Source of the DNA: a virus
DNA length: 55,324 bases
Strand: one strand, 5' to 3'
Virus record (IMG/VR): IMGVR_UViG_3300030419_002654
Span: 1-55,324 of that record
Shown here: in pieces, positions 506-23,480 of the stretch
How positions within the stretch are numbered: the first letter of the stretch is position 1
Layout: every line of letters begins with the position of its first letter
Notes under the pieces: model-generated
The model's database searches: none
What the model was told of the DNA's origin: nothing
What the model saw: only the letters and a program-made list of their open reading frames with translations
Position numbers and translations under genes: made by a program

Positions 506-856
506 GGTCCCCCAAAAGTATCATACTCAAAACTACATATTAATATCCGATAGGGTCCAGGCCGCATTTTATGCGCGGGTCCGTCCGTGGGTCCGGGGAG
601 GGTCAGTACCAGGGTATGATACTTTTTATACTTGAGGGTAGTACCTTATTCGGGTCGGGGGTCCGTACCTTTGGTGAGGGCAGCAGGGTCCAGGGTGGGG
701 TCCTGGCACTGAAAAGTCTACGTGTGAGGGTCTGGGGTGTTTGTGGTCATGGTTGTGGTGAGGGTCGTGGGATTGGTTGAACGCCGCATATTCTGCAGGT
801 TCCTGGTCCTGGGGCTCTATAGTGGGGTCCTGGTGCTGATCAAAAAATTCTGGTCC
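506..856. repeat. Dense GGTCC motif patch
   Basis: GGTCC occurs ten times on the + strand (506, 554, 578, 590, 660, 687, 699, 805, 826, 852), often extended to GGGTCC or GGTCCTGG, in otherwise AT-rich DNA. Roughly one copy would be expected at most. The patch ends just before the G-free zone that begins at 870. Its function is unknown. Confidence 0.8.
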
Positions 857-967
857 TGGTGCATCCCAGTACATCTCATCATTCTCATCAAATCTCACAT
901 TCTCCCATAAAACCACACTAAACACCAACAACCCTAACAAAATCCAAACATACCTAAAATCAATCAT
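626..967 (-). CDS. Putative small membrane-anchored protein with P/H/Q-rich tail
   Basis: This leftward 113-codon frame starts with a clear membrane segment (residues about 6-21, YVWILLGLLVFSVVLW) and has a GGTGA-type ribosome binding site. It lies downstream of a C-free early-type promoter on the same strand (1107-1079). Residues 1-35 contain no P, T, A, H or Q. From residue 36 on, the protein is packed with exactly those residues (for example DPHHNHDHKHPRP), because the DNA switches from C-free to the GGTCC patch. No family is recognised. The tail may be spurious or disordered, so the gene is tentative. Confidence 0.5.
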   Translation of the reverse strand: MIDFRYVWILLGLLVFSVVLWENVRFDENDEMYWDAPGPEFFDQHQDPTIEPQDQEPAEYAAFNQSHDPHHNHDHKHPRPSHVDFSVPGPHPGPCCPHQRYGPPTRIRYYPQV

Positions 968-1078
968 TTACAATCACCAAATTATTATATCAATCAAAAT
1001 TATTATTACCAATACTTTCAATATCATATTCAAAACATTATTCAAAATTTCCTCACTTATCAATTTAACATATTACAT

Positions 1079-1107
1079 ATTATATACACATCAATATTTA
1101 AAATCAA
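1079..1107 (-). promoter_or_regulatory. Leftward early-type promoter, C-free version
   Basis: On the minus strand TTGATT (1107-1102) is followed after 17 bp by TATAAT (1084-1079), with the TTTAAAT extension typical of this phage. The usual cytosines of TTGACTTTAAATC are replaced. It would transcribe the membrane-anchored protein at 967-626. Confidence 0.7.
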
Positions 1108-1144
1108 CTTTTAATTATATCGAAATAAAAAACTCCACTATTTA

Positions 1145-1193
1145 CAACACTTTACAATATAAAAATAATTAAAATAAATTAAAAAAAGTGTTG
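1145..1193. promoter_or_regulatory. Inverted repeat flanking an A/T-only core
   Basis: CAACACTTT (1145-1153) and AAAGTGTTG (1185-1193) form a perfect 9-bp inverted repeat around a core that is A/T only from 1156. The right arm overlaps the -35 region of the first rightward promoter. Its centre (about 1169) is where the G-poor + strand becomes the C-free + strand. It could be an operator shared by the divergent promoters, or an origin element. Confidence 0.6.
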
Positions 1194-1219
1194 ATTTGAA
1201 ATAAAGTTTATGATATATT
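1191..1219 (+). promoter_or_regulatory. Rightward early-type promoter, C-free version
   Basis: GTTGATTTGAAAT matches the phage consensus GTTGACTTYAAATC with C replaced. A TATATT-like -10 (1214-1219) lies 17 bp after TTGATT. It is the outermost rightward promoter of the C-free tract. Confidence 0.5.
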
Positions 1220-1279
1220 TGGGGTATGTTTTTAATTAATATTAATAATAAATTTTATAAAAATAATTTAATTAGGGTA

Positions 1280-1308
1280 TTGATTTTAAATAAGTTTTAT
1301 AGTATAAT
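1280..1308 (+). promoter_or_regulatory. Rightward early promoter, C-free version
   Basis: TTGATT (1280-1285), a 17-bp spacer beginning TTAAATA, and TATAAT (1303-1308). It lies 34 nt before the first C-free gene. Confidence 0.75.
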
Positions 1309-1342
1309 AGTTGTATATTTTAAATTAGTAAGGAGTTTTTAA

Positions 1343-1675
1343 ATGAGTAATGTTTATAGAGAATGTAATTTTTTTAATGTTATTAAATTTAGTAGTAGTG
1401 TTAGAGTTTATGATAGTGTTTTAGAATATAGTGATGTTGAGAAATTTGATAGTTTAGAAGATATATTTGAAAAGTATGTTGATGTTGAATTTGTTAAAGA
1501 TTGGTTTAATATTGATGAAGTTAAATTAGAAGATGTATTAGAAGAAAGAAATGGAATATATGTAATGAGTGTTGATGAAGATATGAGTTTATATATTTTT
1601 AAGAATGATAGTTTAGTTGATTTAATTGAGAATTATGTTTTTAGATTAGATGAAATTAGAAAAAATAATAGTTGA
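1343..1675 (+). CDS. Cytosine-free early gene 1, unknown protein
   Basis: A 110-residue acidic protein starting at ATG with GTAAGGAGT at 1328-1336. The coding strand has no cytosine, so the protein contains no Pro, Thr, Ala, His or Gln. It is rich in Asp, Glu, Val, Ser and Phe (SLEDIFEKYVDVEFVKDWF), with a likely alpha/beta fold. No homolog is recognised. Intact start, stop and ribosome binding site, and a promoter of its own at 1280, argue for a real expressed gene. A second promoter (1672) overlaps its stop codon. Confidence 0.85.
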   Translation: MSNVYRECNFFNVIKFSSSVRVYDSVLEYSDVEKFDSLEDIFEKYVDVEFVKDWFNIDEVKLEDVLEERNGIYVMSVDEDMSLYIFKNDSLVDLIENYVFRLDEIRKNNS

Positions 1676-1700
1676 TTTGAAATAAAGTTTTGTATATAAT
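1672..1700 (+). promoter_or_regulatory. Rightward early promoter, C-free version
   Basis: TTGATT (1672-1677), a 17-bp spacer beginning TGAAATAA, and TATAAT (1695-1700). It lies between the first two C-free genes and begins at the stop codon of the first. Confidence 0.75.
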
Positions 1701-1739
1701 GTGTAGTATAAATTGTTAAAAAGTAAGGAGTAATTTATA

Positions 1740-2168
1740 ATGGAAAGATTAGAAAGATATAGTGAAAGTGAAAAAATGGTTGTAAAAAATAATAGAAAGA
1801 TTTTTTATAGAAATGGGTTATATATTATTAATTGTTTATTAGAAAAGAATGGAGATGAAATTAGTTTTAGTGATTTGAAAAAGATTTTTAGAAGTAATTT
1901 ATATTTAAAAGATTTGTATTATAATATTAGTAATGTTGGTGATATGAGAAGTATGTATTGGGATTTTTATAGTTTTAGTGATAGATATATTATTAATATT
2001 AATGGAATGATTAATAGTGATTATGATAATAATATTAATATTGTTAAAAAAGGAAATAGATTATTTTTAGTTAAAGAAAATTTTAGTGTTTTGAAAGATA
2101 ATGGTTATGAAATGATTAAAGATAGTTTAGGTATTTTTAGATTTGTAAGGAGTGAAGATGTTAAGTAA
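1740..2168 (+). CDS. Cytosine-free early gene 2, unknown protein
   Basis: A 142-residue Asn/Lys/Tyr/Ser-rich protein, ATG preceded by GTAAGGAGT (1723-1731). The coding strand has zero cytosines, hence no P, T, A, H or Q. Residues 20-60 look like an alpha-helical pair (YIINCLLEKNGDEISFSDL) reminiscent of small helix-turn-helix layouts, but I recognise no family. It overlaps the next gene by 11 nt, so the two are probably translationally coupled. Confidence 0.85.
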   Translation: MERLERYSESEKMVVKNNRKIFYRNGLYIINCLLEKNGDEISFSDLKKIFRSNLYLKDLYYNISNVGDMRSMYWDFYSFSDRYIININGMINSDYDNNINIVKKGNRLFLVKENFSVLKDNGYEMIKDSLGIFRFVRSEDVK

Positions 2169-2544
2169 GGAAAATTTAGTTAAAGAAATTAAAGATAGAG
2201 TTGATATTTTAGAAGGTAGAAATATATTTGAGATATATGATATTTTGAAAGAAAGTATTGGTGAAAATTTAAGTTTAGAGAATGATAAATTTTGTTGTAG
2301 TGAAGATGATAAGTTTGTTGTTTTTGGTTGGGGAGATAGATTAGAATTTAGTGGATTTGATTTTTTTAAATTTGATTATGAAGTATATGAGTATATTGAT
2401 AATTTGATTTATGATGTTGATGAAAGTTATGATAGTTTAGAAGATATTAGTGATAATTTAGATTGTTATAAAGATTGGAAAAAAGATTTTGTATATTTTG
2501 ATATGTATGAAAGTGATAGTTATATTATAGTGAGGTTAAAGTAA
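2158..2544 (+). CDS. Cytosine-free early gene 3, unknown acidic protein
   Basis: A 128-residue, strongly acidic protein with Tyr, Phe and Asp clusters (YIDNLIYDVDESYDSLEDIS). I chose ATG 2158 because GTAAGGAGT (2145-2153) leaves 5 nt to it; the upstream GTG at 2152 would sit inside the binding site. No cytosine occurs on the coding strand and no P, T, A, H or Q in the protein. The high acidity would suit a DNA mimic or inhibitor of a nucleic-acid-binding host protein, but that is speculation. Confidence 0.85.
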   Translation: MLSKENLVKEIKDRVDILEGRNIFEIYDILKESIGENLSLENDKFCCSEDDKFVVFGWGDRLEFSGFDFFKFDYEVYEYIDNLIYDVDESYDSLEDISDNLDCYKDWKKDFVYFDMYESDSYIIVRLK

Positions 2545-2645
2545 TGGAAATTATATTTTATGTTGGAATGATTGTGTGGGGTTTTTATTTATTAGTAAAT
2601 GAAGATATTGAAGATGTTAAAAGAGATTTTGGTATAGAAGAATAG
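2544..2645 (+). CDS. Cytosine-free early gene 4, 33-residue membrane microprotein
   Basis: The frame begins at an ATG overlapping the previous stop codon (TAATG) and encodes 33 residues. There is one hydrophobic segment (IIFYVGMIVWGFYLLV, residues about 3-18) followed by an acidic tail. The gene lacks cytosine and the protein lacks P, T, A, H and Q. The C-free tract ends three bases after its TAG. It is probably a single-pass inner-membrane peptide; function unknown. Confidence 0.7.
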   Translation: MEIIFYVGMIVWGFYLLVNEDIEDVKRDFGIEE

Positions 2646-2679
2646 GATCCCGCTATACAATTTTTTTTAAATAAATCTG

Positions 2680-2744: not shown

Positions 2745-2966
2745 GTGAATATAAAAATACAAATTGATACTGGTTTTGTTAAAGATGGCGGGACTGGTAG
2801 TAAATGGAAAGTAATAAAAATTAACGAATCTGATTTGGAAGAATTTAGATTGAAAAGAGATTCTTTAGAACCTGATATGGGTTTAGAGGATTTTATTATA
2901 CATGATATTACTAGTCTGATTGAAAATGAGATTGATAATGGATTGTATGGAATATTTAATTATTAG
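2745..2966 (+). CDS. Hypothetical early protein, 73 residues
   Basis: Starts with GTG 8 nt after AAGGAG (GTAAGGAGT at 2729-2737), giving MNIKIQIDTGF. It is acidic, with a beta-strand N terminus (KIQIDTGFVKDGG) and amphipathic helices after residue 26. No family is recognised. It is the first gene after the C-free tract and contains normal amino acids. A short membrane gene follows at 2974. Confidence 0.75.
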   Translation: MNIKIQIDTGFVKDGGTGSKWKVIKINESDLEEFRLKRDSLEPDMGLEDFIIHDITSLIENEIDNGLYGIFNY

Positions 2967-2973
2967 GAGTAGT

Positions 2974-3066
2974 ATGGAAAATTATTTATTTGGAATTTTG
3001 TTTGTGAGTGTTGTAGTGTTTACAATATTCTTTATAATAGCTATTGATGAGGTATTCTTTAAATAA
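2974..3066 (+). CDS. 30-residue membrane microprotein
   Basis: The ATG follows TAGGAG at a short distance. The product is almost entirely one membrane helix (GILFVSVVVFTIFFIIAI). Its stop overlaps the ATG of the next gene (TAATG), which supports a coupled real gene. It parallels the 33-residue microprotein at 2544 in position and architecture. Confidence 0.6.
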   Translation: MENYLFGILFVSVVVFTIFFIIAIDEVFFK

Positions 3067-3530
3067 TGGATATGTATTCAAAACAAGAACGAGCGGAAGC
3101 TAATAAAGAACTATCTGATGCCTTAACAGGTGTCAGATGGGAAGACGAAATGATTGAAGATGGAGTCTGTCCTAATTGTGCCGGTACCGGATATCAAGAT
3201 GGTGAATATGAGATCTGGTGTGATGATGCTGAAGAGTATGTAGAAGGAAACGAATGTGATGGTTGGGGAATATTCGGTTGTGATGAAGGTGAGATGACTG
3301 GAGCAAGTTGGGTAGAAATTCTTGAGTACGATAGAAAATGTGCTGACAGAAAAGCATCACTAGAAAGATATGATTTTGATACAGCTGTTAATGAAGTAGC
3401 GGCTTATGTAAAATTTATGTCGGATCCGAGATTATGTGGACAACAAGTCAAGATTGATTATCCTCATTTAGGAAGATACGAAAGAACAAAAGTCGTAACT
3501 GAAGGAATGCGGAAAGCTGGTTTGATCTAA
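3066..3530 (+). CDS. Early protein with DnaJ-type CxxCxGxG zinc motif
   Basis: A 154-residue protein. Residues about 37-80 carry CPNCAGTGYQDG and later WC, EC and GC cysteines, like a minimal DnaJ-type zinc knuckle. The remainder is helical and charged. Zinc binding is inferred from the cysteine spacing. Its start overlaps the preceding stop. An intrinsic terminator follows (3556-3581), preceded by an anti-Shine-Dalgarno-like element in its 3' untranslated region, so this is the end of a transcription unit. Confidence 0.8.
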   Translation: MDMYSKQERAEANKELSDALTGVRWEDEMIEDGVCPNCAGTGYQDGEYEIWCDDAEEYVEGNECDGWGIFGCDEGEMTGASWVEILEYDRKCADRKASLERYDFDTAVNEVAAYVKFMSDPRLCGQQVKIDYPHLGRYERTKVVTEGMRKAGLI

Positions 3531-3541
3531 ACCACTAAAAA

Positions 3542-3553
3542 TGAACTCCTTAC
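3542..3553 (+). promoter_or_regulatory. Anti-Shine-Dalgarno-like element, copy 2
   Basis: TGAACTCCTTAC lies between the stop codon at 3530 and the terminator stem at 3556, the arrangement of a 3'UTR-derived base-pairing RNA. It is complementary to GTAAGGAGT upstream of the early genes and mimics the 16S rRNA 3' end (CTCCTTA). Confidence 0.5.
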
Positions 3554-3555
3554 GA

Positions 3556-3581
3556 CCCTGCCAATTGGCAGGGTTTTTTTT
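3556..3581 (+). terminator. Intrinsic terminator
   Basis: The perfect palindrome CCCTGCCAATTGGCAGGG (3556-3573) is followed by eight T (3574-3581). It ends the 2680-3530 transcription unit. Confidence 0.93.
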
Positions 3582-3590
3582 GTCAAATTG

Positions 3591-3619
3591 TTGACCTCAA
3601 ATCATATAGTTCAGATAAT
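3591..3619 (+). promoter_or_regulatory. Early promoter
   Basis: TTGACC (3591-3596) with the TCAAATC extension, a 17-bp spacer and GATAAT (3614-3619), starting 10 nt after the terminator. It serves 3647-4149. Confidence 0.75.
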
Positions 3620-3646
3620 AGTACTATCAATTAAGTAAGGAGTATT

Positions 3647-3835
3647 ATGGAATATTTAATGATAGAAAAGGAACAGATGGGAATTCCAGCTAGTGCTGAA
3701 TTAATATCTGAGTCTGAATTTAATGATATAATTGACAACAGTAATGTTGGTGATTATAGTCACAGTGCTGGTCTTAGTCATAGTGTATATGATTTTGAAT
3801 TGTTTATGGTTGTAGTTGATAGGAGGGATTCATAA
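3647..3835 (+). CDS. Hypothetical early protein, 62 residues
   Basis: ATG preceded by GTAAGGAGT (3635-3643), the signature ribosome binding site of this region. It is a short acidic protein (ISESEFNDIIDNS) with a hydrophobic C-terminal strand (DFELFMVVVD). No family is recognised. It ends TAATG, overlapping the next gene. Confidence 0.7.
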   Translation: MEYLMIEKEQMGIPASAELISESEFNDIIDNSNVGDYSHSAGLSHSVYDFELFMVVVDRRDS

Positions 3836-4149
3836 TGGAAAATTTAGTTGACATGATTGAAAGAATCTTAGAAAAATCTAATAGGATCCAACAAGGATTT
3901 TTAGATAGACTTGAAGCTAATGATCTTAGACTGTCTAGGTTAGAAGGACAGATCAAATCTATAGATAATAGACTTGAGGATCTTTATGCAAATCATAATA
4001 ATCAATTAGTTGTGATTGAACAATCAGCAAAATTAAATGCTGGTAATAATGATTCAATATCAAGACAGATTGATGGTATAGCAGATAGACAAAAATTAAT
4101 GTCTGGATTAATTGAAAATATTGAGGACAAGTTGATAGATATGTCTTAG
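3835..4149 (+). CDS. Coiled-coil early protein, 104 residues
   Basis: Heptad-like hydrophobic spacing runs through most of the protein (MIERILEKSNRIQ, LEGQIKSIDNRLEDLY, MSGLIENIEDKLIDMS). It has the look of an oligomeric coiled coil. It overlaps the preceding stop by one base. It is similar in style to the coiled-coil protein at 5254, which may be a distant paralog. Function unknown. Confidence 0.75.
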   Translation: MENLVDMIERILEKSNRIQQGFLDRLEANDLRLSRLEGQIKSIDNRLEDLYANHNNQLVVIEQSAKLNAGNNDSISRQIDGIADRQKLMSGLIENIEDKLIDMS

Positions 4150-4159
4150 GGCATATCTG

Positions 4160-4188
4160 TTGACTTTAAATCAACAATATTGGATAAT
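4160..4188 (+). promoter_or_regulatory. Early promoter
   Basis: GTTGACTTTAAATCA with TTGACT at 4160-4165, a 17-bp spacer and GATAAT (4183-4188). Confidence 0.8.
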
Positions 4189-4215
4189 AGTTGTATATTT
4201 AGTAAGGAGTAAAGA

Positions 4216-4404
4216 ATGAAAAAATATGAAACTAAAGAAACTAAAAATCTTGGAAACAAAGTTATTGTTTTAAGATATAATGAAGAAAATCCTTTATTAG
4301 AATTTATTGAAGCAGGTCTTCAAGAAGGTTTGTCTTATAAAGGTGAATTAGGTGAACTGTTTGAAAAGGCAGTTGATTTTTGTGTAGATAAAAGGATTAT
4401 ATAA
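4216..4404 (+). CDS. Hypothetical early protein, 62 residues
   Basis: ATG preceded by GTAAGGAGT (4202-4210). A Lys/Glu-rich small protein with a beta-hairpin-like start (KKYETKETKNLGNKVIVL) and an amphipathic helix. No family is recognised. It shares a transcript with the 196-residue gene that follows 13 nt later. Confidence 0.7.
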   Translation: MKKYETKETKNLGNKVIVLRYNEENPLLEFIEAGLQEGLSYKGELGELFEKAVDFCVDKRII

Positions 4405-4417
4405 GGGGGGCATATAT

Positions 4418-5008
4418 ATGAGTTTTTATGGAAGATTTTTTGAACCACAAGAAAAATTAACTTTTAGAAAAGTGTTAGATAGAGTTGGTTCATTTACAGC
4501 AGTAGAATGTAAGGCATATATAGAGTCTAGTAGACAGGCTCTATATGAACTTTATAAAAAAGAAGTAGATGGAAAATATGTTTTTGATAAACAAGCAAAT
4601 CACAAAGTTGATGATGATGTCCAGCCTTTTATAGACTACATAGATGAAGTGATATCTAGACAGGGCAAATCTAGTGAGGGAGATATAGACTGCTGGAATG
4701 ACCTTATATGTATCAGGGACTATATAGTGCAGGATATATTAGGGGTATATGAGGCTGATGGATATGGCTCTCATAATTATGATAATATTAAAGTCATGGA
4801 TATATTGCTAGATGATACTAGCAAGAATCTAACAATGTGGCCTTTATTACAATATGCTAGTGACTGGAATCCTAAAATGCAGGGATATAAGAAGCTGTAT
4901 AATAAGTATGTAGATTTACATTGGAAATTAATTGAAGATTCAGATTCATATGATAGTAATATGACTGTAGAGAAATTTGAATCTAAGATATTATATAATC
5001 TGTTATAA
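4418..5008 (+). CDS. Hypothetical early protein, 196 residues
   Basis: ATG preceded by AAGGGGGG. A mostly helical, aromatic-rich protein (SRQALYELYKKEVDGKYVF, YKKLYNKYVDLHWKL) with no motif I can assign. It is the last gene of the 4160 transcript. Two hairpins follow its stop (5019-5035 and 5044-5066). Confidence 0.75.
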   Translation: MSFYGRFFEPQEKLTFRKVLDRVGSFTAVECKAYIESSRQALYELYKKEVDGKYVFDKQANHKVDDDVQPFIDYIDEVISRQGKSSEGDIDCWNDLICIRDYIVQDILGVYEADGYGSHNYDNIKVMDILLDDTSKNLTMWPLLQYASDWNPKMQGYKKLYNKYVDLHWKLIEDSDSYDSNMTVEKFESKILYNLL

Positions 5009-5253: not shown

Positions 5254-5502
5254 ATGAGTGAAATAGAACATTTAGCAAATATGATTGACAAGTTGATCGA
5301 TAAGGTTGATACGCTTGACAATAAACTTGATACGTTAGAATCTAGTATTGATGATATTAGAATTGAATGCACAAGCACTGAAAGTATGCTAAGTACTATA
5401 GACAGTGAAGTATCTAGTATTTACTCTCAAGTATCTAGTTTAGAAAGTGAGATAACAAGTATCGGATCTACTGTAGATAATATAGACGCGAGGATTGAAT
5501 GA
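5254..5502 (+). CDS. Coiled-coil early protein, 82 residues
   Basis: ATG preceded by TTAAGGAGT. Almost the whole protein is a regular heptad coiled coil with Ile/Leu at a and d positions (IDKLIDKVDTLDNKLDTLES, SEVSSIYSQVSSLESEI). It is acidic and Ser-rich. It resembles trimeric phage coiled coils. Function unknown. The stop overlaps the next start (ATGA). Confidence 0.8.
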   Translation: MSEIEHLANMIDKLIDKVDTLDNKLDTLESSIDDIRIECTSTESMLSTIDSEVSSIYSQVSSLESEITSIGSTVDNIDARIE

Positions 5503-5663
5503 GTAAGCCAGATATTAAAGACACGTTTATCGACGATAGTGGTGTAGTGCATCATATAGATGACTTTAGACCTAGTGAAGATGAAGTGCTACAAGAGGGG
5601 CAGTGCATTTGCGGGGCTTTTGATTGCGACGAAGAATACGCGCATTGGACATCAGGATGGTAG
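5499..5663 (+). CDS. 54-residue Cys-containing early protein
   Basis: The ATG overlaps the upstream stop (ATGA). The protein is acidic with a cysteine cluster CICGAFDC at residues about 36-43 and ends HWTSGW. A small metal site is possible. The next gene starts inside its last codons (ATGGTAG), consistent with a tightly packed operon. No family is recognised. Confidence 0.65.
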   Translation: MSKPDIKDTFIDDSGVVHHIDDFRPSEDEVLQEGQCICGAFDCDEEYAHWTSGW

Positions 5664-5917
5664 AGTCAGTATTCTTAATGTTAACTATTACGGTTTCGAC
5701 TATTGACGAACCTATTGAGTTTGGTATTAGACAGCCGGACATGGTGTCGTGCGTGGCGGAGCTAGATGGGTTTGATGGTGCTCCGTTCAGTTTATTATTT
5801 ATGGGGCAAAGCATTGATATTAAGACTCAGTGTATAGCGCGCCCTATTGCTAACCAGGTTGTCAATAATGGTAAACCTATTAATGTGTTAGTTAAGGCAA
5901 ATTGTGAGACGAAGTAA
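5657..5917 (+). CDS. Hypothetical early protein, 86 residues
   Basis: I chose ATG 5657, which overlaps the upstream stop, rather than the non-ATG codon at 5624. The protein looks all-beta (VFLMLTITVSTIDEPIEFG). The local sequence is richer in G and C than its neighbours. No family is recognised. Confidence 0.6.
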   Translation: MVESVFLMLTITVSTIDEPIEFGIRQPDMVSCVAELDGFDGAPFSLLFMGQSIDIKTQCIARPIANQVVNNGKPINVLVKANCETK

Positions 5918-6284
5918 TCTATTTGATATACCTATGAGAAGAGTAAATATGCTAGGCGAGGATTTAACATTGAAAGAGCAGATGTTGGCTGGCCCTGATG
6001 TATTGTTTCCAGATAGCGATTGGAAAGATGAGAAGAGTGTTGACAATGATAAGTATGGTATGAAAGTTCAACATATGATAGGACCTTTTAGTAATGGTTA
6101 TCAGATGAGTGTTATTAAAGGACCTTTTACAATTGGAGGACCTAGCGGGCTATGGGAGATTGCTCCTATGGATATAGGTAGACATTTTATTGGCCAGGCG
6201 TTGCTTGATTGGGGTGATGATGTTATGGGGAGACTTACACTTGACCAAGTATATGAACAATGTAAATTATTGGAGCAGCTATGA
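5904..6284 (+). CDS. Hypothetical early protein, 126 residues
   Basis: GTG start placed 6 nt after AAGG; an internal ATG at 5934 is an alternative. A region of Gly/Pro-rich turns (MIGPFSNGYQMSVIKGPFTI) is followed by a C-terminal helix. No family is recognised. Its stop overlaps the next ATG. Confidence 0.65.
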   Translation: MRRSNLFDIPMRRVNMLGEDLTLKEQMLAGPDVLFPDSDWKDEKSVDNDKYGMKVQHMIGPFSNGYQMSVIKGPFTIGGPSGLWEIAPMDIGRHFIGQALLDWGDDVMGRLTLDQVYEQCKLLEQL

Positions 6285-6415
6285 CAAGAGCTAGATGGAA
6301 GAAAGGTGTTGCCAAAAGAAGAGCAGGTGCACTAGATAGATTGCTAAAGGTTAAAGAACCTAACGAAAGACAATCAAAAGAAATTGAAGTGTTACAGAAA
6401 AGGATAAATAGATAA
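6281..6415 (+). CDS. 44-residue basic early protein
   Basis: The ATG overlaps the upstream stop (ATGA). It is highly basic (MTRARWKKGVAKRRAGALDR) with a helical tail, like small conserved proteins of marine T4-like phages. Nucleic-acid binding is possible. It is followed two bases later by a membrane-protein gene. Confidence 0.7.
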   Translation: MTRARWKKGVAKRRAGALDRLLKVKEPNERQSKEIEVLQKRINR

Positions 6416-6416
6416 T

Positions 6417-6608
6417 ATGTTAGATTGGATCTACTTAGATTGGTACATAGTATTATTACCTGTAGCTTTCTTACACGGATGGTTTGTTGGTAGAAGTCAT
6501 GGCGTAAGAAAAGGTGCAGCTGATATGTTCGACCACCTATACGATAAAGGAACAAGAGTTAAAGGAAAACAACATACAAAGATTATTGAAATTAGTTTAG
6601 ATGAGTAA
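6417..6608 (+). CDS. Small membrane protein, 63 residues
   Basis: One N-terminal membrane segment (WYIVLLPVAFLHGWFVG, residues about 9-25) is followed by a basic cytoplasmic tail (GVRKGAADMFDHLYDKG). Proteins of this type occur in cyanomyovirus gene strings; the role is unknown. It overlaps the next gene by 8 nt. Confidence 0.75.
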   Translation: MLDWIYLDWYIVLLPVAFLHGWFVGRSHGVRKGAADMFDHLYDKGTRVKGKQHTKIIEISLDE

Positions 6609-6816
6609 TGCGACAAGTAAACCTATACACGAATATAGGTATGAATACAAAGGAAAGCAAAGATGGGCTCAAGTCTATGTTAATGAAGATTCTTTTGATA
6701 TCCATTGTTTTGTGGATAACGTTTTTCAAGGTATAAGAAATATAAAGGGACACAGTGAACTGTATGCAGAGAATGCTGCAGAGAATTTTGTAATGGGATT
6801 ATATGACACCCCGTAA
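6601..6816 (+). CDS. Hypothetical early protein, 71 residues
   Basis: A soluble alpha/beta small protein (YEYKGKQRWAQVYVNEDSFD) with no recognised family. It overlaps both neighbours (8 and 14 nt), which supports translation as part of the 5254-7105 operon. Confidence 0.7.
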   Translation: MSNATSKPIHEYRYEYKGKQRWAQVYVNEDSFDIHCFVDNVFQGIRNIKGHSELYAENAAENFVMGLYDTP

Positions 6817-8451: not shown

Positions 8452-9090
8452 ATGGTAAAAATATTTGAAGAAGATAAGCCTCATCTATCAGGACGATCTG
8501 ATATATTAAATGACGTCAACAAGGATGAGAATTTAAACCAATCACTAGAAAGTTCAAGAGGAACACAAAGAAAAAGCTACGGATACTTTCTAGCAATACA
8601 AAACTTCTTTGAGACCCAACAAGAGATACATGATCTATGGCAAAAGAATAGAGAGATGGTAGACTACATTGCTAACGAAGTTGGTTATTGGAATGAAGAA
8701 ACTCTAAACTTTAATATAGATTGGAATGATTATACATTCCATTCGCTCGAAGGATTCGAAGCTGACATTAAAGATAACCCTAAGCCAGTACATTCAATAC
8801 ATGCAAGAAATTTAGGACAGACTTGTGCTAAGTGGACTGCTATTGTTAACTGTAGTGGTAGAGATGACATTCAAGGCGGAGAATTAATTTTTAGAGATTG
8901 GAAAGATCCAGCAAGAAGAGATAACTATGGCAAGGCAGTAGGTGATGATGAAACCTGTCAACCACAATGGATTAATGAACTAGGAACATTAATAATATTT
9001 CCTAGTATAGGAGCTCACGGTCACCAGCTAGTAGTATCAGGTGGCTTTAGAAGAGTGCAATTAGATTTTAAAGGACCTTCATTCAAATGA
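8452..9090 (+). CDS. 2OG-Fe(II) oxygenase-like protein, degenerate
   Basis: A 212-residue protein whose C-terminal half has the double-stranded beta-helix pattern of 2-oxoglutarate/Fe(II) dioxygenases: GGELIFRDW, LGTLIIFPS, then GHQLVVSGGFRRVQLDFKGP with the distal His and the 2OG-binding Arg. The proximal HxD is not clear (HAR is seen), so catalysis is uncertain. It is structurally parallel to the better-preserved oxygenase at 9542. The substrate is unknown. Confidence 0.65.
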   Translation: MVKIFEEDKPHLSGRSDILNDVNKDENLNQSLESSRGTQRKSYGYFLAIQNFFETQQEIHDLWQKNREMVDYIANEVGYWNEETLNFNIDWNDYTFHSLEGFEADIKDNPKPVHSIHARNLGQTCAKWTAIVNCSGRDDIQGGELIFRDWKDPARRDNYGKAVGDDETCQPQWINELGTLIIFPSIGAHGHQLVVSGGFRRVQLDFKGPSFK

Positions 9091-12876: not shown

Positions 12877-13145
12877 TGGACAAGGTAGCACAACTAATAT
12901 CCGAGTTCGGATTTCCAGTAGTACTGGCACTCGGAATGGGCTACTTTATATACTTTGTATGGAAGTTTGTAACGCTTGAGTTAAAGCCTCAGCTAGGCAA
13001 ATCTTCCACTGAGCTGATCCGACTTCTGGATCAAATTAGAATGTTAGATAATGATTTGATTAGACTTCAACAGAAAGTTGATACTGTATTGGAGTATAAA
13101 GAGACGCAAGAGAAAAAAGCGTTAGAGGTAAAGAAGAAGAAATGA
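12876..13145 (+). CDS. Holin-like membrane protein 2 (TM plus coiled coil)
   Basis: An 89-residue protein with ISEFGFPVVLALGMGYFIYF (membrane segment) and a coiled-coil tail (LLDQIRMLDNDLIRLQQKVD) ending in a Lys-rich tip (KKALEVKKKK). The N-terminal I-S-E-x-G-x-P motif and the MLDNDLI/MMNNDMI core are shared with the preceding gene. The start overlaps the preceding stop (TAATG) and the end overlaps csgF by 4 nt. Confidence 0.6.
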   Translation: MDKVAQLISEFGFPVVLALGMGYFIYFVWKFVTLELKPQLGKSSTELIRLLDQIRMLDNDLIRLQQKVDTVLEYKETQEKKALEVKKKK

Positions 13146-13654
13146 AAAGACTTTTAATATTATTACTATGTGCACCAATGGTCAATGCAGACATTGTGCA
13201 CAAATTCAAAAACCCATCCTTTAGTGGACAAGGCACTGGGGCGCATTATTTGACTATAGAGAACCAGGAATTCTCAAGAAAGAAAGCGATAGAAGAGGCT
13301 CTCGAGGCAGCTCGTAAAGCAGCAGAAAGAGAAGCTAACAATACAACTCTGGCAAAATTCATCAGAAATTTAGAGAGCAGGATCTATGCACAAATGGCAA
13401 AGCAATTAGTCGAGTCAATGTTCTCTAACGATACAGCAGCAAGTTATGGGTCATTTATATTAGAAGGATCCACAGTCACCTGGCAAGTAATAACAGGTGA
13501 AGACGGAACAGATTATATCCGTTTAACAATTGTTGCAGAAGATGGTACAACAACAGAAATAGAGATACCTGTAGGAACAGGATACTTTGGAGGAGATGTA
13601 GATGATAGCGGCGGTTCGAGCGACGGCGGCGGTGGTTCTGACGGCGGTTCTTAG
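13142..13654 (+). CDS. csgF: Curli assembly protein CsgF-like
   Basis: A 170-residue protein with signal peptide (residues 1-16, ending VNA) and then the CsgF N-terminal signature FKNPSFSGQGTGAHYL, which in E. coli CsgF inserts into the CsgG channel. A helical neck follows, and a C-terminal beta region (VTWQVITGEDGTDYIRLTIV). The Gly/Ser/Asp-rich tail (SGGSSDGGGGSDGGS) is unusual and arises where the DNA also encodes the CsgG signal peptide in another frame. It should act at the cell surface with CsgG. Confidence 0.9.
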   Translation: MKRLLILLLCAPMVNADIVHKFKNPSFSGQGTGAHYLTIENQEFSRKKAIEEALEAARKAAEREANNTTLAKFIRNLESRIYAQMAKQLVESMFSNDTAASYGSFILEGSTVTWQVITGEDGTDYIRLTIVAEDGTTTEIEIPVGTGYFGGDVDDSGGSSDGGGGSDGGS

Positions 13655-14498
13655 TAGCTGCGCTTCAATACCACAGTGGTCAGACAATCCACAAGATTGC
13701 ACACCAGATCCAGTAGTAGACGTAGTCACTGCTGTTAAGTATCCGTTTAAAAGAAACTATATCTGTGTTAATGAACCAGAGGTAGTTAAACTACCATCAT
13801 ACATTCAATTATTAGAACTACCACCAGCAGAAACTAAGCCGGTAGTTGCAGTATATAAATTTTTAGACAAGACAGGACAAAGAAAAGAAGCTCCAAATAT
13901 TGCATTGTTTTCAACAGCAGTGACACAAGGTGGAGTTGAAATGTTAATAGATGCTCTAAAGACAGCAGGTGGAGGTACCTGGTTTAGAGTAGTAGAAAGA
14001 CAAGGGATTGATCATCTAGTTAGAGAAAGGCAGATCATTAGAAGTGCAAGAGATGAAGCTGCTAAGAAACTAGGTGAAGAATCTAAAGGGGTTGGCCCAC
14101 TGTTATTCGCAGGAATAATAATTGAGGGCGGCGTAATAGGTTATGATAGTAATGTCAGAACGGGAGGACGTGGAGCACGTTATCTCGGAATTGGCAGAAC
14201 GAAGCAATATCGAGAAGATGTTGTTACAGTTTCATTAAGAGCAGTTTCTGTTCTTAGTGGAGAAGTTTTATTAAACGTCCAGAGTACAAAGACTATTCTA
14301 AGTTATGGATCCAGCGGTGATATTTTTAGATTTATTGAGCAGGGTACAAGATTAGTTGAGTATGAGGATGGTGTCGGTAATAATGAGTCAGTGACATACG
14401 CAGTACGAACAGCAATTGAAGCTGCAGTACTGGAATTAGTATACCAGGGCGACGAACGTGGCTTCTGGACAATTAAAGAGGAAAATGAAAATGAATAA
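13602..14498 (+). CDS. csgG: Curli secretion channel lipoprotein CsgG
   Basis: A 298-residue protein with a lipoprotein signal peptide (MIAAVRATAAVVLTAVLSSC, lipobox Cys20) that overlaps csgF by 53 nt. The core matches E. coli CsgG throughout: FSTAVTQ, WFRVVERQGIDHLVRERQII, IIEGGVIGYDSNVRTGG, GARYLGIG, STKTILSY, GDIFRFIE and ERGFW. CsgG forms a nonameric outer-membrane pore for curlin export. In the constriction loop the Phe before STAV is kept, but the residue aligned with E. coli Asn55 is Leu. It is followed by its likely substrates. Confidence 0.96.
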   Translation: MIAAVRATAAVVLTAVLSSCASIPQWSDNPQDCTPDPVVDVVTAVKYPFKRNYICVNEPEVVKLPSYIQLLELPPAETKPVVAVYKFLDKTGQRKEAPNIALFSTAVTQGGVEMLIDALKTAGGGTWFRVVERQGIDHLVRERQIIRSARDEAAKKLGEESKGVGPLLFAGIIIEGGVIGYDSNVRTGGRGARYLGIGRTKQYREDVVTVSLRAVSVLSGEVLLNVQSTKTILSYGSSGDIFRFIEQGTRLVEYEDGVGNNESVTYAVRTAIEAAVLELVYQGDERGFWTIKEENENE

Positions 14499-15219
14499 AT
14501 TTATATTAGGCCTAAGTTTAATCATGTTTCCATTCTTTACATATGCTGCTGCCACTGATGATAACGAAATTAATATAGACCAAGTTGGTGACACTCTTGT
14601 TCTATACATTGACCAAATCGGTTATGGTAACAAAATGGGACTGAATAACTTTTCAAGTGGTTCAAGTGCTATGCCAATAACTGGTTCGTCTTTAACCTTC
14701 AATATCGATCAGATTGGTAATGAAAATTTGCTTTATGGAGAGGTTACAGCGGATAGTTCATCTTACACTTTAGAGTGGAATGGTGATTCTAACGTATGGG
14801 ACTGGATGATTGGTGATTCAGGTAGTTCAGATAACTCGAACTTCCTAGTAGACATCACTGGTGATTCCAATACTATGGATCTCGACCAAGGGACAAATTT
14901 ATCAGCTGAAAGATTGGATCTTGATTTAACCGTCATAGGTGACTCAAACGTATTTGATGTAGACATTGACGTAGATGATGCTGTTTGGAACATGGACATT
15001 ACAGGTGGTTCAAACAACATAAACACAATGCAGAAAGATGGAGCTGAACAAGAAATTAATTTAACACTTGTTGGTTCTTCTGCTGATGTTGATATCAACC
15101 AAATGAGTGGAACATGCCCTCAAGGTATTTCTACTTGTAATGGTATCATAACATTAGACATTGATTCAGAAAATGCTACTATTCAAATCAATCAGAAAGA
15201 CGCTACTAACGACAGTTAG
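14491..15219 (+). CDS. Secreted curlin-repeat protein 1 (CsgA/CsgB-like)
   Basis: I chose ATG 14491, giving a signal peptide (MNKFILGLSLIMFPFFTYA). The mature protein has curlin-type repeats of the form I-D-Q-x-G-x-x-N (IDQVGDT, IDQIGYGN, IDQIGNEN), then GDSN repeats. It ends in CPQGISTC and INQKDATNDS. Such Q/N/G beta-strand repeats build amyloid fibres exported by CsgG. Only some repeats keep the full Q-x-G-x-N, so nucleator or fibre-cap roles are possible. The last 47 nt also encode the FecR signal peptide. Confidence 0.85.
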   Translation: MNKFILGLSLIMFPFFTYAAATDDNEINIDQVGDTLVLYIDQIGYGNKMGLNNFSSGSSAMPITGSSLTFNIDQIGNENLLYGEVTADSSSYTLEWNGDSNVWDWMIGDSGSSDNSNFLVDITGDSNTMDLDQGTNLSAERLDLDLTVIGDSNVFDVDIDVDDAVWNMDITGGSNNINTMQKDGAEQEINLTLVGSSADVDINQMSGTCPQGISTCNGIITLDIDSENATIQINQKDATNDS

Positions 15220-16327
15220 TGTTGCAACGATAACTGTGGGTTCGCTCTATGCGAGTGAGCCCATAGGTTCTATCACCGAACACAAAGGTGAAGCATACCT
15301 TACAAGAGACTTAGACGAAACACCAATAGCAGTTGGTGATGTTATTCCTGAGGTGTTATTAAACGACACAGCAGAAACAAAAGACGGAAGGATGCTAATT
15401 AAGTTTTTAGATGATGCACAATTAGATATGACTGAATGGACAAAAGCATATCTTGACAAAGTATATTATGACCCAGATCCAAGTAAGTCTAAAATGACAA
15501 TGCGTTTCGTTCAAGGAACAGCAAGATTTACTTCAGGTAGATTAGGAATGGTTCCTAAAAAGAACATTGATCTATCAACACCAACAGCACAGATAGCAGT
15601 TAGAGGAACAGACTTCACAACTACAATTGATGAGTTGGGGAGAACATTAGTTATATTATTACCAGACAAGTGGGGAGGCCCATCAGGAGTTATAGATGTT
15701 TTTAATGATGGTGGATCAATAACTTTAGACCAAGCATATCAAGCTACAATGGTTTCCAGTTTCGATTCTCCACCAACACCACCAGTAACAATAGCGAACT
15801 TAACTATTAGTATGATCGATAATATGTTTATTGTCAATCCTCCAAACGAAGTTAAGAAAGCAATACAAGAACAAGTAGCAGATGACTTAGAACAAGATAA
15901 AGGAATTTTAGATGTAGACTTTTTAGAGTTTAATGAGTTAGAAGGAGATGCAGGATTATCAAATGATGCACTAGATGAGTTTAGTGAGTTAGATATTGAT
16001 GCATTAAATGTTGACTTCTTACCAGACTTATTAGATGTTGTAGAAGAGTTAGTTAGAACGACAGCTAAGTTAGAAGATAAACAAGCTGGCCAGGTAGGTA
16101 CATTTAATTTAGATGGAGCTACTGGAGGCTTTAATAAAGATTCACAATATAATATCTTTGAACAAGATGGAGATATTGTATTCTTCAGAGATGTTAATGG
16201 TACGATTAGATTACAATTTGCAACGGACGCATCTGTAAGATTAGATACCTTTACAGAAACATACGAAGGAACTATATTATTAAATGGTGGTGACGATATT
16301 TTAATTGTCATTACTCAAAGGAACTAA
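15173..16327 (+). CDS. Exported FecR-domain protein
   Basis: ATG 15173 gives a signal peptide ending SLYA, read in a frame overlapping the curlin gene. Residues about 30-150 match FecR-type domains: GSITEHKGEAYLTRD, then DGRMLIKFLDDAQLDM, and the signature STPTAQIAVRGTDF. FecR domains act as periplasmic regulatory or ligand-binding modules. In bacteria, FecR-domain genes often neighbour CHASE2-cyclase genes, as here (17282). The Asp/Glu/Leu-rich C-terminal half is unassigned. Confidence 0.85.
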   Translation: MLLFKSIRKTLLTTVSVATITVGSLYASEPIGSITEHKGEAYLTRDLDETPIAVGDVIPEVLLNDTAETKDGRMLIKFLDDAQLDMTEWTKAYLDKVYYDPDPSKSKMTMRFVQGTARFTSGRLGMVPKKNIDLSTPTAQIAVRGTDFTTTIDELGRTLVILLPDKWGGPSGVIDVFNDGGSITLDQAYQATMVSSFDSPPTPPVTIANLTISMIDNMFIVNPPNEVKKAIQEQVADDLEQDKGILDVDFLEFNELEGDAGLSNDALDEFSELDIDALNVDFLPDLLDVVEELVRTTAKLEDKQAGQVGTFNLDGATGGFNKDSQYNIFEQDGDIVFFRDVNGTIRLQFATDASVRLDTFTETYEGTILLNGGDDILIVITQRN

Positions 16328-16345
16328 ATATAACAGAGGTACAAA

Positions 16346-16561
16346 ATGTTAGAAAGAATATTAGCAGAAAGATTAGATGTAGATGCAGATTCTATATCAG
16401 ATGAAAAAAATATAGTAGAGGACTTAGGAGCAGACTCATTATCAGTAGTTGAGATAATTATGGATATAGAAAGTGAGTTTGATATTAGCATTCCAGACGA
16501 AGATGCAGAAGAGCTTCATACTGTAGGACAATTAAGAGAGTACATTGAAAACTATGCGTAA
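16346..16561 (+). CDS. acpP: Acyl carrier protein
   Basis: A 71-residue acidic four-helix protein with the 4'-phosphopantetheine attachment motif DLGADSLSVVEI (Ser in DSL) and the usual helix III/IV region (PDEDAEELHTVGQLREYI). It is slightly shorter than E. coli AcpP (78) at the N terminus. It may redirect host fatty-acid or lipid-A/lipoprotein acylation, or carry acyl chains for modification of the exported proteins; its place between FecR and curlin genes is unexplained. Its end overlaps the next ATG. Confidence 0.93.
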   Translation: MLERILAERLDVDADSISDEKNIVEDLGADSLSVVEIIMDIESEFDISIPDEDAEELHTVGQLREYIENYA

Positions 16562-17198
16562 GTTATTGTTATTACTATTATTATCTACGCCAGTGTTTGC
16601 TGGAGATAATCACGTGCACGTTGAGCAAGTGGGTAATGGTGGTGATAATGTTGACCTTACAATAGATCAAATTGGTTATGATAATTTAATTAACTTTTCT
16701 TTTGCTCACCAGAATAACGTATTCGAATTTATGCAATCTGGTTCAGGCAACTCTATATCTTGGGTTCCATATTGGGGATCAGGTAAGAGCTGGGGCGGTG
16801 ATGTTGATGGAACAGGTAATAGTGAAGACATAGCTCAGTATGATGGAGCAACATATGGTAGACATATATGGGGCAACAATAATACAGTTGAAGTATATCA
16901 AGATGGAGAGCATACACACTACTTAGATATACATGCTAGCTCTGTAGAAGTAGACACTCACCAAGAAGGAAGTGGCGAACATTATAGTCATGCTTATTTC
17001 TACGGTACCACTTCTAACTCAGAAGTAAACATTACACAAAAAGATAATGCAAATCATAACGCACAAATTAAAATACAAGGTAACCAACCTACAACTTTAA
17101 ATTTAACTCAACAGGGTTCAACTAATCAAAGTTATAACCTCACACAAACATGTTACACTACTGGAGGATGTACAGTAAACGTAACGCAAGGAAACTAA
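16554..17198 (+). CDS. Secreted curlin-repeat protein 2 (CsgA/CsgB-like)
   Basis: ATG 16554 gives a classic signal peptide (RKLLLLLLLSTPVFA). The mature chain has curlin-like strands (VEQVGNGGDN, IDQIGYDN, NITQKDNANHN, LNLTQQGSTNQ) and a His/Asn/Gly-rich middle. It ends TCYTTGGCTVNVTQGN. The C-terminal Cys pair parallels the one in curlin protein 1. Likely a CsgG substrate forming amyloid on the infected cell. Confidence 0.85.
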   Translation: MRKLLLLLLLSTPVFAGDNHVHVEQVGNGGDNVDLTIDQIGYDNLINFSFAHQNNVFEFMQSGSGNSISWVPYWGSGKSWGGDVDGTGNSEDIAQYDGATYGRHIWGNNNTVEVYQDGEHTHYLDIHASSVEVDTHQEGSGEHYSHAYFYGTTSNSEVNITQKDNANHNAQIKIQGNQPTTLNLTQQGSTNQSYNLTQTCYTTGGCTVNVTQGN

Positions 17199-17281: not shown

Positions 17282-19087
17282 ATGACTAAATGGTGGACAG
17301 TTTTAATCACAATAGCCTTATTGGCATCAGTAAAGATTTGGAATCCAGATCCATTAAAATCTTTACGATACATTCAATACGATTTCTTTCAACAGAAACA
17401 GGAGCAAGTACAAGTAGATGATATTGTGCTTGTTAACATAGACGAAAAAGCAATACAACAAGAAGGACAATATCCATGGCCACGTGATATAGTTGCTAAG
17501 TATATAAACGAAGGTCCTGCAAATAGTCTTTATGTTTTGAATATGATATATTCTGAACAAGATAGATTTGGAGGCGACCAAGCATTACGAGAAGCACTAT
17601 ATCAAAAAGCTGTGGTCCTATCATCTGCACCGACCAATCAATTATCTGATGGGGTAGGAAACTTTGTTGGTGTTGCAACATTAGGACAAGATCCAGGAGG
17701 ATGGTTAAATGAATATCCAGGACTCCTTTATCCGATTGACGATCTGTCTACTGCTGCTTACGGTGTTGGCGCTACCGCTAGCGTTGGTGATGTACCCACG
17801 GGCGTCGTGCGACGTGCTCCTTTGGTCATCAGAGCCAACGGGGTTCAGTACCCTCAACTTGCACTCGACGTACTTAGAGTGTATTCAGGAGAGCCAAGCT
17901 ATTCAATCAAAGCAGGAGACAACGGAGTCGAGTGGGTAAGGATAGGTAGATTGGATCCAATCACAACTGATAGTTATAGTAATGTTCCAATAGCATTTTG
18001 GAATCAATTTAAAAGTCAGAGTATTTTGGATCCATTACCAACTGATAAGATCCTAGTGTTTGGTGTCACAGCTGAAGGCTATGCTAATCCAGTTTCAACC
18101 CCAATGGGTGCAGTGTATCCCCACGAAGTTCAAGCCCATCTGATCCAAACAATGTTATCAGGCGTTCAAATAACTGAACCCGACTGGTCTGCAATAGCAG
18201 AGCTTGGTCTTCTGGTGATCTTGTGTCTAGGAATGCTTGTAGTGGTCTATACCTTTCCCACAGCTCTTGCGGGGACATTTGGCGTTCTTCTTTTAGGCGT
18301 CGGGCCTGGAGTAAGTTATTGGCTCTGGACCGATTTAGTCTTTTTAGATGCAACTTTTTCTTTCTTTGGTTCACTAATAGTATTTGCGCAAAGTTCTTTC
18401 AATAAGTACTTTACTACTTATAAGCTGAAAGAACAAATTAAAAAGCAGTTCGGTACTTATTTATCTCCCGACATGGTTAAAATGCTACAGGACGATCCAA
18501 GTTTATTAAAGTTAGGTGGAGAAAGAAGAGAGATGAGTTTTATGTTTATGGACATATGTGGATTCACTCCCATATCAGAGCATTATAAGAATAATAATGA
18601 CCCAGAAGGTCTTGTAGAACTTGTAAACAAGTTTTTAGATTTACAAACAAAGATCATTCTAAATAATAATGGAACAGTAGACAAGTACATGGGCGATTGT
18701 ATCATGGCATTCTGGAATGCACCACTGCCTTGTGAGAATCATGCCGACATGGCAATTAAAACATCTATAGAAATCATTGAGGCAACTAAAGAATTAAATG
18801 AAGAACTTAAACCGCTTAATCTTCCTCCTATTAACGTTGGCATTGGTGTTAACACCGGCGACTGTATTGTCGGAAACATGGGATCAGAAGTTAGATTTGA
18901 CTATTCCGTCATTGGAGATGCCGTCAATCTCGCCGCTAGACTCGAAAGCCAAACAAGAAATTATGATGGGGTGGACTTGTTGCTATCAGAATTCACTCGT
19001 GAAGCAAGTACAGATGGAACATTTACAGAAGTCGATCGCATCACAGTTAAAGGCAAAACCGAGCCAGTTACAATTTACACTTACTGA
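17282..19087 (+). CDS. CHASE2-domain class III adenylate cyclase
   Basis: A 601-residue protein. An N-terminal membrane segment (residues 4-17) precedes a periplasmic CHASE2 sensor (VLVNIDEKAIQQEGQYPWPR). Three membrane segments follow (about 305-375), then a cytoplasmic cyclase domain. It has the first metal Asp (FMDICGFT, D424), adenine-specifying Lys468 and Asp472 (DKYMGD), and DYSVIGDAVNLAARLES with transition-state Asn and Arg. Ser replaces the Thr or Asp common after Tyr. The domain looks catalytically complete, so cAMP production is expected. Parts of the gene (about 17740-17880 and 18790-19080) are richer in G+C than neighbours. Confidence 0.93.
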   Translation: MTKWWTVLITIALLASVKIWNPDPLKSLRYIQYDFFQQKQEQVQVDDIVLVNIDEKAIQQEGQYPWPRDIVAKYINEGPANSLYVLNMIYSEQDRFGGDQALREALYQKAVVLSSAPTNQLSDGVGNFVGVATLGQDPGGWLNEYPGLLYPIDDLSTAAYGVGATASVGDVPTGVVRRAPLVIRANGVQYPQLALDVLRVYSGEPSYSIKAGDNGVEWVRIGRLDPITTDSYSNVPIAFWNQFKSQSILDPLPTDKILVFGVTAEGYANPVSTPMGAVYPHEVQAHLIQTMLSGVQITEPDWSAIAELGLLVILCLGMLVVVYTFPTALAGTFGVLLLGVGPGVSYWLWTDLVFLDATFSFFGSLIVFAQSSFNKYFTTYKLKEQIKKQFGTYLSPDMVKMLQDDPSLLKLGGERREMSFMFMDICGFTPISEHYKNNNDPEGLVELVNKFLDLQTKIILNNNGTVDKYMGDCIMAFWNAPLPCENHADMAIKTSIEIIEATKELNEELKPLNLPPINVGIGVNTGDCIVGNMGSEVRFDYSVIGDAVNLAARLESQTRNYDGVDLLLSEFTREASTDGTFTEVDRITVKGKTEPVTIYTY

Positions 19088-21929: not shown

Positions 21930-22778
21930 ATGTGGAATTTATCAAAGATATTCAAAACTACTAGGTATCTAATGAAAACAGATGCAAGTGGTTTTGGTGA
22001 CCATGACAACCCTGACATGAATGGACAACACAGATTGGATCACATAGTTAATATGTACCGTGAAATGAATATTCCATTTGGTCCTATGATGGCATCAGCC
22101 AACAGAAAAACAAAAGCAGGAAGAGATATAATTTGGGCTAGAGGAGACTTTACCGAAGATAATATTGATAATGTTGTCGTACCTACTTTGATGGATTTCG
22201 AATACCTAAAGAGTTTGGCACCTAACACGGTAGGTGCCCACTACTACCATCTAGTTAAAGGATGGGGCATAGAAGAACTATACAATCAAAGGTTTAAACA
22301 TTCAGAGACAGATCTTTTAGGAGATTTTGCTGCAGAGATAAGAACGAACCTTTCAAGACACTTATTATTGAGTCACGACTTATGGCATGTGTTGTTTAGA
22401 TACGATACTTGTACAATGGGTGAAGCAATGATTCAAGAAGTCACAGCACACTTATCTAAATTTAAACCGCCAAGACTAGTATCATTTTTTGGTACTTGGA
22501 AAATGGCAAGGAAGTTAAAATCTAAACTTCCATGGAAAGTTAGAAAAGAATGTATTCAACTTTCAAGGGCATGTTCGCGAGAACTATTTTTTCAACCTCC
22601 ACTATCTCTATTAGAAAAGGATATTCAAGAGGTTAGAGACACCTACAATATTGGAGTACCAGTTTTGTACAAACAATATGTAGAAGAATTTGGTCCACTA
22701 GGTGAAGCAAGAATGGATACATTCCATCCTCAATACAATGACGCCAAGTGGAATGAAGTGGAACCAATCAGTATATAA
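21930..22778 (+). CDS. coq4: COQ4-family protein
   Basis: A 282-residue protein. The central HDLWHVLFRYDTCTMGEAMI and following QE give the COQ4 metal motif HDxxH-x11-E. COQ4 takes part in ubiquinone biosynthesis as a membrane-associated scaffold or enzyme. Flanking helices are basic, without a membrane segment. A phage copy next to Fe-S assembly and thiol genes suggests support of respiration during infection; that is inference. Confidence 0.85.
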   Translation: MWNLSKIFKTTRYLMKTDASGFGDHDNPDMNGQHRLDHIVNMYREMNIPFGPMMASANRKTKAGRDIIWARGDFTEDNIDNVVVPTLMDFEYLKSLAPNTVGAHYYHLVKGWGIEELYNQRFKHSETDLLGDFAAEIRTNLSRHLLLSHDLWHVLFRYDTCTMGEAMIQEVTAHLSKFKPPRLVSFFGTWKMARKLKSKLPWKVRKECIQLSRACSRELFFQPPLSLLEKDIQEVRDTYNIGVPVLYKQYVEEFGPLGEARMDTFHPQYNDAKWNEVEPISI

Positions 22779-23063: not shown

Positions 23064-23480
23064 ATGGCATATAGTAAAAAGGTCGTAGAAAGATTCGAAA
23101 ATGTATTAAACAATCCAGAGGCTCACTCTGTAGGCCGTTTTGATCCTCAAGATCCCAATGTAGCAACAGGAATGACAGGTGCACCAGCTTGTGGTGATGT
23201 TATGAAGCTACAACTTAAACTAAACATTGATGGATTGATAGAAGATGTAAAGTTTAAAACATATGGCTGTGGTTCAGCAATAGCATCATCTACAATGTTT
23301 GTAGAAATGTTAAAAGGCAAAACCATAGAAGAAGCAAAACAAGTTAAAGATAAGGACATAGCAAAAGCATTAGAGCTACCTCCAATTAAATTGCACTGCT
23401 CAGTATTAGCAGAAGATAGTATTAAAAAAGCAATAGAGAACTGGGAGGAAAAAACGGCTCACAGGAGACATAACCAGTGA
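23064..23480 (+). CDS. iscU: Fe-S cluster scaffold IscU
   Basis: A 138-residue protein matching IscU: GAPACGD (first Cys and the Asp), KTYGCGSAIASS (second Cys), the helix-III LPPIKLHCSVLAED (His and third Cys). All three cluster ligands are present, so it should assemble [2Fe-2S] clusters. No IscS desulfurase is in the window, so sulfur would come from the host. The stop overlaps the A-type carrier start. Confidence 0.96.
   Translation: MAYSKKVVERFENVLNNPEAHSVGRFDPQDPNVATGMTGAPACGDVMKLQLKLNIDGLIEDVKFKTYGCGSAIASSTMFVEMLKGKTIEEAKQVKDKDIAKALELPPIKLHCSVLAEDSIKKAIENWEEKTAHRRHNQ

Follow-up and report, generated by a model that had tools for sequence, protein, structure and literature searches.

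Results

A C-free operon and its mirror-image arm

Positions 1156..2648 on the plus strand of the window, i.e. the whole stretch of 55,324 nt that was analysed, form a run of 1,493 nt with no C; the next-longest C-free run anywhere in these 55 kb is 106 nt. This island holds three promoter-like sites, a leader and four tandem ORFs amounting to 413 codons, together with the gaps between them. ORF 1 (1343..1675, +) encodes an acidic product of 110 aa and is preceded by AAGGAG at 1330-1335, ORF 2 (1740..2168, +) encodes 142 aa behind AAGGAG at 1725-1730, and ORF 3 (2158..2544, +), which overlaps the end of ORF 2, encodes 128 aa behind AAGGAG at 2147-2152; none of the three could be assigned to a family. 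The start of ORF 4 (2544..2645, +) overlaps the ORF 3 stop, and its 33-aa product has a hydrophobic start and an acidic end. Since the coding strand lacks C, the products lack Pro, Thr, Ala, His and Gln and use 15 of the 20 amino acids. An earlier note had described the four products as free of these residues and written in C-free codons only, which is true for all 413 codons, with zero C; the C-free stretch itself exceeds the 1343-2645 given there, as it includes non-coding DNA and promoter-like sites.

The promoter-like sites, of the type used by this phage and all without C, lie on the plus strand at 1191..1219 (TTGATT-17-TATATT), 1280..1308 and 1672..1700 (both TTGATT-17-TATAAT), whereas the majority of sites of the same type outside the island carry TTGAC. 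The promoter DNA at 1188-1225 has 10 G and 0 C. At the other end, the border falls 3 nt past the stop codon of the last ORF, within a possible intrinsic terminator (2632..2668, +; stem GTATAG/CTATAC followed by T8) that is weakly predicted (z -0.68) and contains the first C after the island, at 2649. To the left the asymmetry is inverted. The minus strand of 870..1155 has a single C, at position 1122, which is the sole G of the plus strand in 870-1187 and divides it into G-free runs of 870-1121 and 1123-1187. The switch takes place in a 32-bp segment of A and T only (1156..1187), such that the mirror-image skew about an A/T-rich segment that is looked for at replication origins and displaced strands is found here. 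The arm carries a divergent promoter-like site, TTGATT-17-TATAAT without C (1079..1107, -), which together with its upstream DNA (1073-1155) has 15 G and 1 C on the minus strand, and the beginning of a divergent ORF of 113 aa (626..967, -), the first 98 nt of which are C-free and encode a hydrophobic N-terminus. The C-terminal part of this ORF (626-869, -) is C-rich and encodes a segment rich in Pro, His, Asp and Gln, the opposite extreme to the adjoining operon. The outer borders of the whole arrangement, 869/870 and 2648/2649, are sharp.

The G content of the four genes, 19-25%, is undiminished and the loss of C is one-sided; thus the island is not mere AT-richness. C-containing codons make up 40% of those elsewhere in the window, and at that rate 413 C-free codons would arise by chance with a probability of ~10^-93. 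Simple-sequence or purine-repeat DNA was rejected as the nature of the island, there being no tandem arrays in 1156-2760; ordinary chance, hypermutation and sequence repeats each fail to account for a C-free operon. A purely tRNA-based cause can also be set aside, as C is avoided at the third base although NNC and NNU codons presumably share tRNAs. Because promoters, leader and intergenic DNA are included, and because the minus strand left of the island repeats the pattern in mirror image, the constraint acts on the nucleic acid and not on the proteins as such, and the 15-residue alphabet is its consequence.

The phage and its surroundings

The window comes from a T4-like myovirus, as identified by T4-type core genes for the gp6 baseplate wedge (E 3e-157), a gp32-type SSB, a gp59-type helicase loader, RNase H and a baseplate hub. 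Its nearest named phages, phiN3, phiM12 and Cr30, stand at 38-39% at the amino acid level, and from relatives and gene content, rather than from a sample record, the phage is probably marine. Downstream of the island, operons of small genes (2745..5008, +) have a reduced C content of 4-11%, compared to about 15.5% elsewhere, and the content is back to about 15% beyond 5.0 kb. The C-free and downstream genes are likely to be early genes in view of how small they are, where they lie and what promoters they have.

Several other features of the window are unusual. Seven copies of GGATGTCC, all on the plus strand and mostly 12 bp apart, lie within 335-475 and nowhere else in the 55 kb, with part of this region (401-434) forming a strong hairpin; GGGTCC occurs nine times in the window, eight times within 505-830 and there always on the plus strand; and strong RNA folding is predicted for 321-860 (z -3.35). 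Farther downstream the phage carries CsgF- and CsgG-like and curlin-repeat proteins, of curli type, with a FecR-domain protein between them (13142-17198), a protein with CHASE2 and adenylate/guanylate cyclase domains (17282-19087), and Coq4-like (21930-22778) and NifU-N-like (23064-23480) proteins.

A small protein encoded at 63-320 matches 24 related contigs. L004, the closest of these, has no C-free stretch, and the flanking genes common to both contigs are found there without the island between them. L004 also has a 399-aa ORF (5472-6671) resembling, by eye, isocitrate lyase/PEP mutase. At the edge of another relative, L005, 196 nt contain one G on the plus strand, and a C-free ORF begins there on the minus strand (MSNLKLSNYKINLIWDNNKNKIYNLYINK...); this is suggestive of a partial C-free case, but short and very A/T-rich.

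The C-free frames are genes and were not made by simple conversion

The longest ORFs counted 142, 130 and 110 codons (ORF 3 was taken as 130 codons in this comparison, its product from the ATG at 2158 being 128 aa), whereas 2,000 dinucleotide-shuffled versions of the C-free sequence gave none longer than 78. Moreover, three of the ORFs have AAGGAG at the proper distance, ORFs 2 and 3 as well as 3 and 4 overlap at stop and start, and base use varies by codon position. The C-free frames are therefore genuine genes, and the earlier suggestion that function was kept under the constraint is supported by their tandem arrangement, ribosome-binding sites and codon structure.

Convincing relatives written in the full alphabet, which the same note had proposed to look for by profile methods, were not found. 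The C-free proteins had no significant profile match in PHROGs, Pfam or PADLOC and no homolog in tblastn against annotated phages; ORF 2 had none among the viral contigs, and ORFs 2 and 3 had no significant match among PDB sequences. ORF 3 matched positions 2177-2548 of L004 weakly and locally (E 0.054 among all ORFs searched), but this match was not accepted because it spans 51 residues and was selected from many comparisons. AlphaFold2, run on single sequences with no alignment as input, gave mean pLDDT values of 45 for ORF 2 and 48 for ORF 3, too low to bear out the foldable look that the note ascribed to the proteins. The search of RNA families returned no worthwhile match, BTnc201 scoring 28 bits where the cut-off is 105.

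The five missing residues aside, the composition of the C-free proteins is near that of the other proteins of the phage. Ser, all of it AGT (34 of 413 codons), makes up 8.2%, Val 8.5% and Arg 4.8%, compared to 8.6, 8.8 and 5.1% in the phage's own proteins renormalized without Pro, Thr, Ala, His and Gln. A simulated C-to-T conversion of the other genes instead predicts 2.4% Ser, 13.5% Val and stops at 3.9% of the codons, and the AGT-Ser count has P = 6e-10 against conversion. A region hypermutated from C to T, by a deaminase or by chemical conversion, was rejected on these Ser and Val values. Because the composition fits the renormalized proteins, the island is neither a converted copy nor a sequencing artefact of the conversion type; it evolved within C-free space and not by simple conversion. 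Synonymous third positions of Val and Ile fit no simple model, since T takes up 78% of them against the 44-50% predicted by either model.

C-free genes in other viruses

Viral contigs were scanned with a pattern consisting of a ribosome-binding site, ATGAAAAA and then non-C bases, which gave two further real cases, L047 and L044, independent and in unrelated viruses. In L047 a 66-aa ORF lies within 544 nt that have 79 G and 0 C; the DNA polymerase of this virus is most similar to those of haloarchaeal tailed viruses (29% identity). L044, from a phage whose terminase is nearest that of Moorella phage MTATph1, has 414 nt with 2 C around a 117-aa ORF whose match to MazG is weak (Pfam E 0.04); the next gene encodes a polynucleotide-kinase-type 3'-phosphatase. 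The L044 stretch begins exactly at the ribosome-binding site (8616/8617) and extends past the stop codon; it retains Arg (AGR) and Leu (TTG), Val, Phe and Ile are not raised, and the gene directly follows one that contains C, no clear promoter separating the two. Neither L044 nor L047 has a mirrored arm, and L044 has no T excess.

The same scan, which used an MKK start, also returned a poly-lysine gene (L045, L046, L048) and purine repeats (L049, L050), set aside as trivial. Scans with an MSN start or a C-free promoter gave no further cases, such pattern scans reaching only genes with particular starts, and a closer search for relatives of the L005 end gene and of the L044 gene returned only themselves. 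Four complete T4-like phages had no C-free run of at least 90 nt, and ten further phages, including T4, T5, SPO1, AR9, CP220 and HTVC008M, had none of about 120 nt. Among 296 bacterial (Bacteroidota) genomes, the C-free stretches were only simple, microsatellite-like repeats. Several low-complexity C-free stretches of at least 180 nt lie on contigs 2, 7, 13 and 20 of the Belliella aquatica genome (G026) that contains L049.

Discussion

The explanation that we favour, tentatively and as a good possibility rather than a probable one, is that this early operon of four small proteins has been kept C-free by selection against each single C, giving an mRNA of A, G and U only. The operon would be active at a time when cytidine in RNA is a disadvantage, either because CTP is scarce or poisoned by a chain-terminating analogue, in which case only C-free transcripts would be completed, or because an activity of the host or the phage cuts or damages RNA at C, in which case only C-free messages would remain translatable. 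What favours such selection is the exact zero, which implies a cost for every C rather than a threshold effect, together with the recoding of the proteins, the occurrence of the same in unrelated viruses, and borders that appear to be those of expression units, running in L044 from the ribosome-binding site to past the stop and in the window to 3 nt past the last stop. The cost would be specific to the C-free genes, because C is not scarce elsewhere in the genome and the downstream operons are intermediate. The L044 gene, with a C-containing gene ahead of it and no clear promoter, fits RNA damage better than a shortage of CTP; no gene for lowering CTP or for a C-specific nuclease was identified. 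It can further be hypothesized, although we think it somewhat unlikely, that certain early genes form a class held C-free in unrelated viruses for expression while cytidine in RNA is attacked or unavailable, i.e. as a three-letter genetic channel, which would work once a C-directed weapon of the host or of the virus itself had silenced all other messages. Selection on the transcript covers the C-free promoter DNA least well, as a pure RNA explanation does not predict it, and the T excess at Val and Ile codons counts against it.

The C-free promoter DNA and the mirror arm are better met by mutation, an unlikely cause but a serious one. Here, two strands would be exposed as single strands again and again, plus beyond 1187 on the right and minus beyond 1155 on the left, having been displaced at an R-loop or replication origin with its centre at 1156-1187, and C would deaminate to U in each generation, with selection merely keeping the frames open. 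Such a process would affect promoter DNA along with genes and would produce the mirror arm, with the strand switch falling at the A/T-only segment as expected for a bidirectional origin; it is also in keeping with the T excess, with the recovery of C over about 3 kb downstream, and with the G-over-C skew of L005 and L007, which likewise decays away from the corresponding contig end. However, the composition is not that of C changed to T, as Ser is kept through AGT and Val, Ile and Leu are not in excess, so a long re-adaptation would have to follow. The borders at 869/870 and 2648/2649, and at 8616/8617 in L044, are sharper than this would give, and L044 and L047 lack the mirrored arm, and L044 the T excess. 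Selection on the transcript thus stays our preferred reading.

Three other explanations are weaker. C-free early messages might escape Rho-dependent termination and polarity, since Rho loads on C-containing unstructured RNA, and a Rho-sensitive counterpart would be provided by the divergent transcript, in its C-rich 3' part; we consider this improbable. Rho requires several C over tens of bases, such that the last few should be neutral, and neither an exact zero over 1,493 nt nor C-free promoters are predicted, while the DNA polymerase of the L047 virus is nearest those of haloarchaeal tailed viruses, and archaea are not known to have Rho. In its favour, the downstream operons are C-poor and the 3' part of the divergent ORF is very C-rich. 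Moreover, Rho uses cytidine-rich sites as anchors and keeps foreign A/T-rich DNA silent (PMC6797219), and in vitro it restricts T4 transcription to immediate-early RNA (PMC2988021). Acquisition as a cassette, from a genome or element in which all genes are C-free, so that the island was not shaped in this phage, agrees with the sharp borders, the lack of homologs and the shared flanking genes that lie without an island in the closer relative L004. We regard it as distinctly improbable, as the island shares its promoter spacing and ribosome-binding sites with the rest of the phage, the neighbouring operons are intermediate in C content, and no candidate source was found in the collections scanned. 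Finally, an artefact of sequencing, assembly or chemical conversion might be suspected of a single metagenomic contig, a 55-kb fragment, yet it is hardly credible given that the recoding of Ser to AGT excludes C-to-T conversion of the data, the ORFs are ordered, with promoters and ribosome-binding sites, and comparable islands exist on other contigs.

If selection is the cause, the operon would point to a C-directed phage-host conflict of unknown kind, with the four proteins as candidates for counter-defence, and if mutation is the cause, to an extreme, localized and mappable strand-specific loss of C. In either case, it offers a natural test of the limits of protein evolution without Pro, Thr, Ala, His and Gln. 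The open-access literature searched contained no natural multi-gene operon limited to three bases and 15 amino acids, and the nearest parallels share only parts of the pattern. In the MazF 'single protein production' system of engineered E. coli, with ACA-less genes, the message is likewise recoded to avoid what the RNase requires and goes on being translated as the other mRNAs are cleaved, but that system is engineered and lacks one trinucleotide, whereas the phage operon is natural, lacks one base entirely and has no known nuclease. C-less (G-less) cassettes for in vitro transcription share the property that a C-free transcript needs no CTP, but they are laboratory constructs and not a set of four viral protein-coding genes. 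Prokaryotic viperins, which make ddhCTP and other ddh-nucleotides, would provide a natural setting where C in RNA costs the completion of the transcript, although neither a viperin nor a counter-viperin is seen here and the link is hypothetical. T4 Alc terminates transcription on DNA with unmodified cytosine (PMC2988021), such that the C content of DNA decides transcription there too, but it acts on host DNA, and no Alc homolog is seen here. GC skew at replication origins and R-loops resembles the mirror-image loss of C on two displaced strands, but the skew of the island, at 1.00 with sharp borders, is far above that usual for origins and R-loops.
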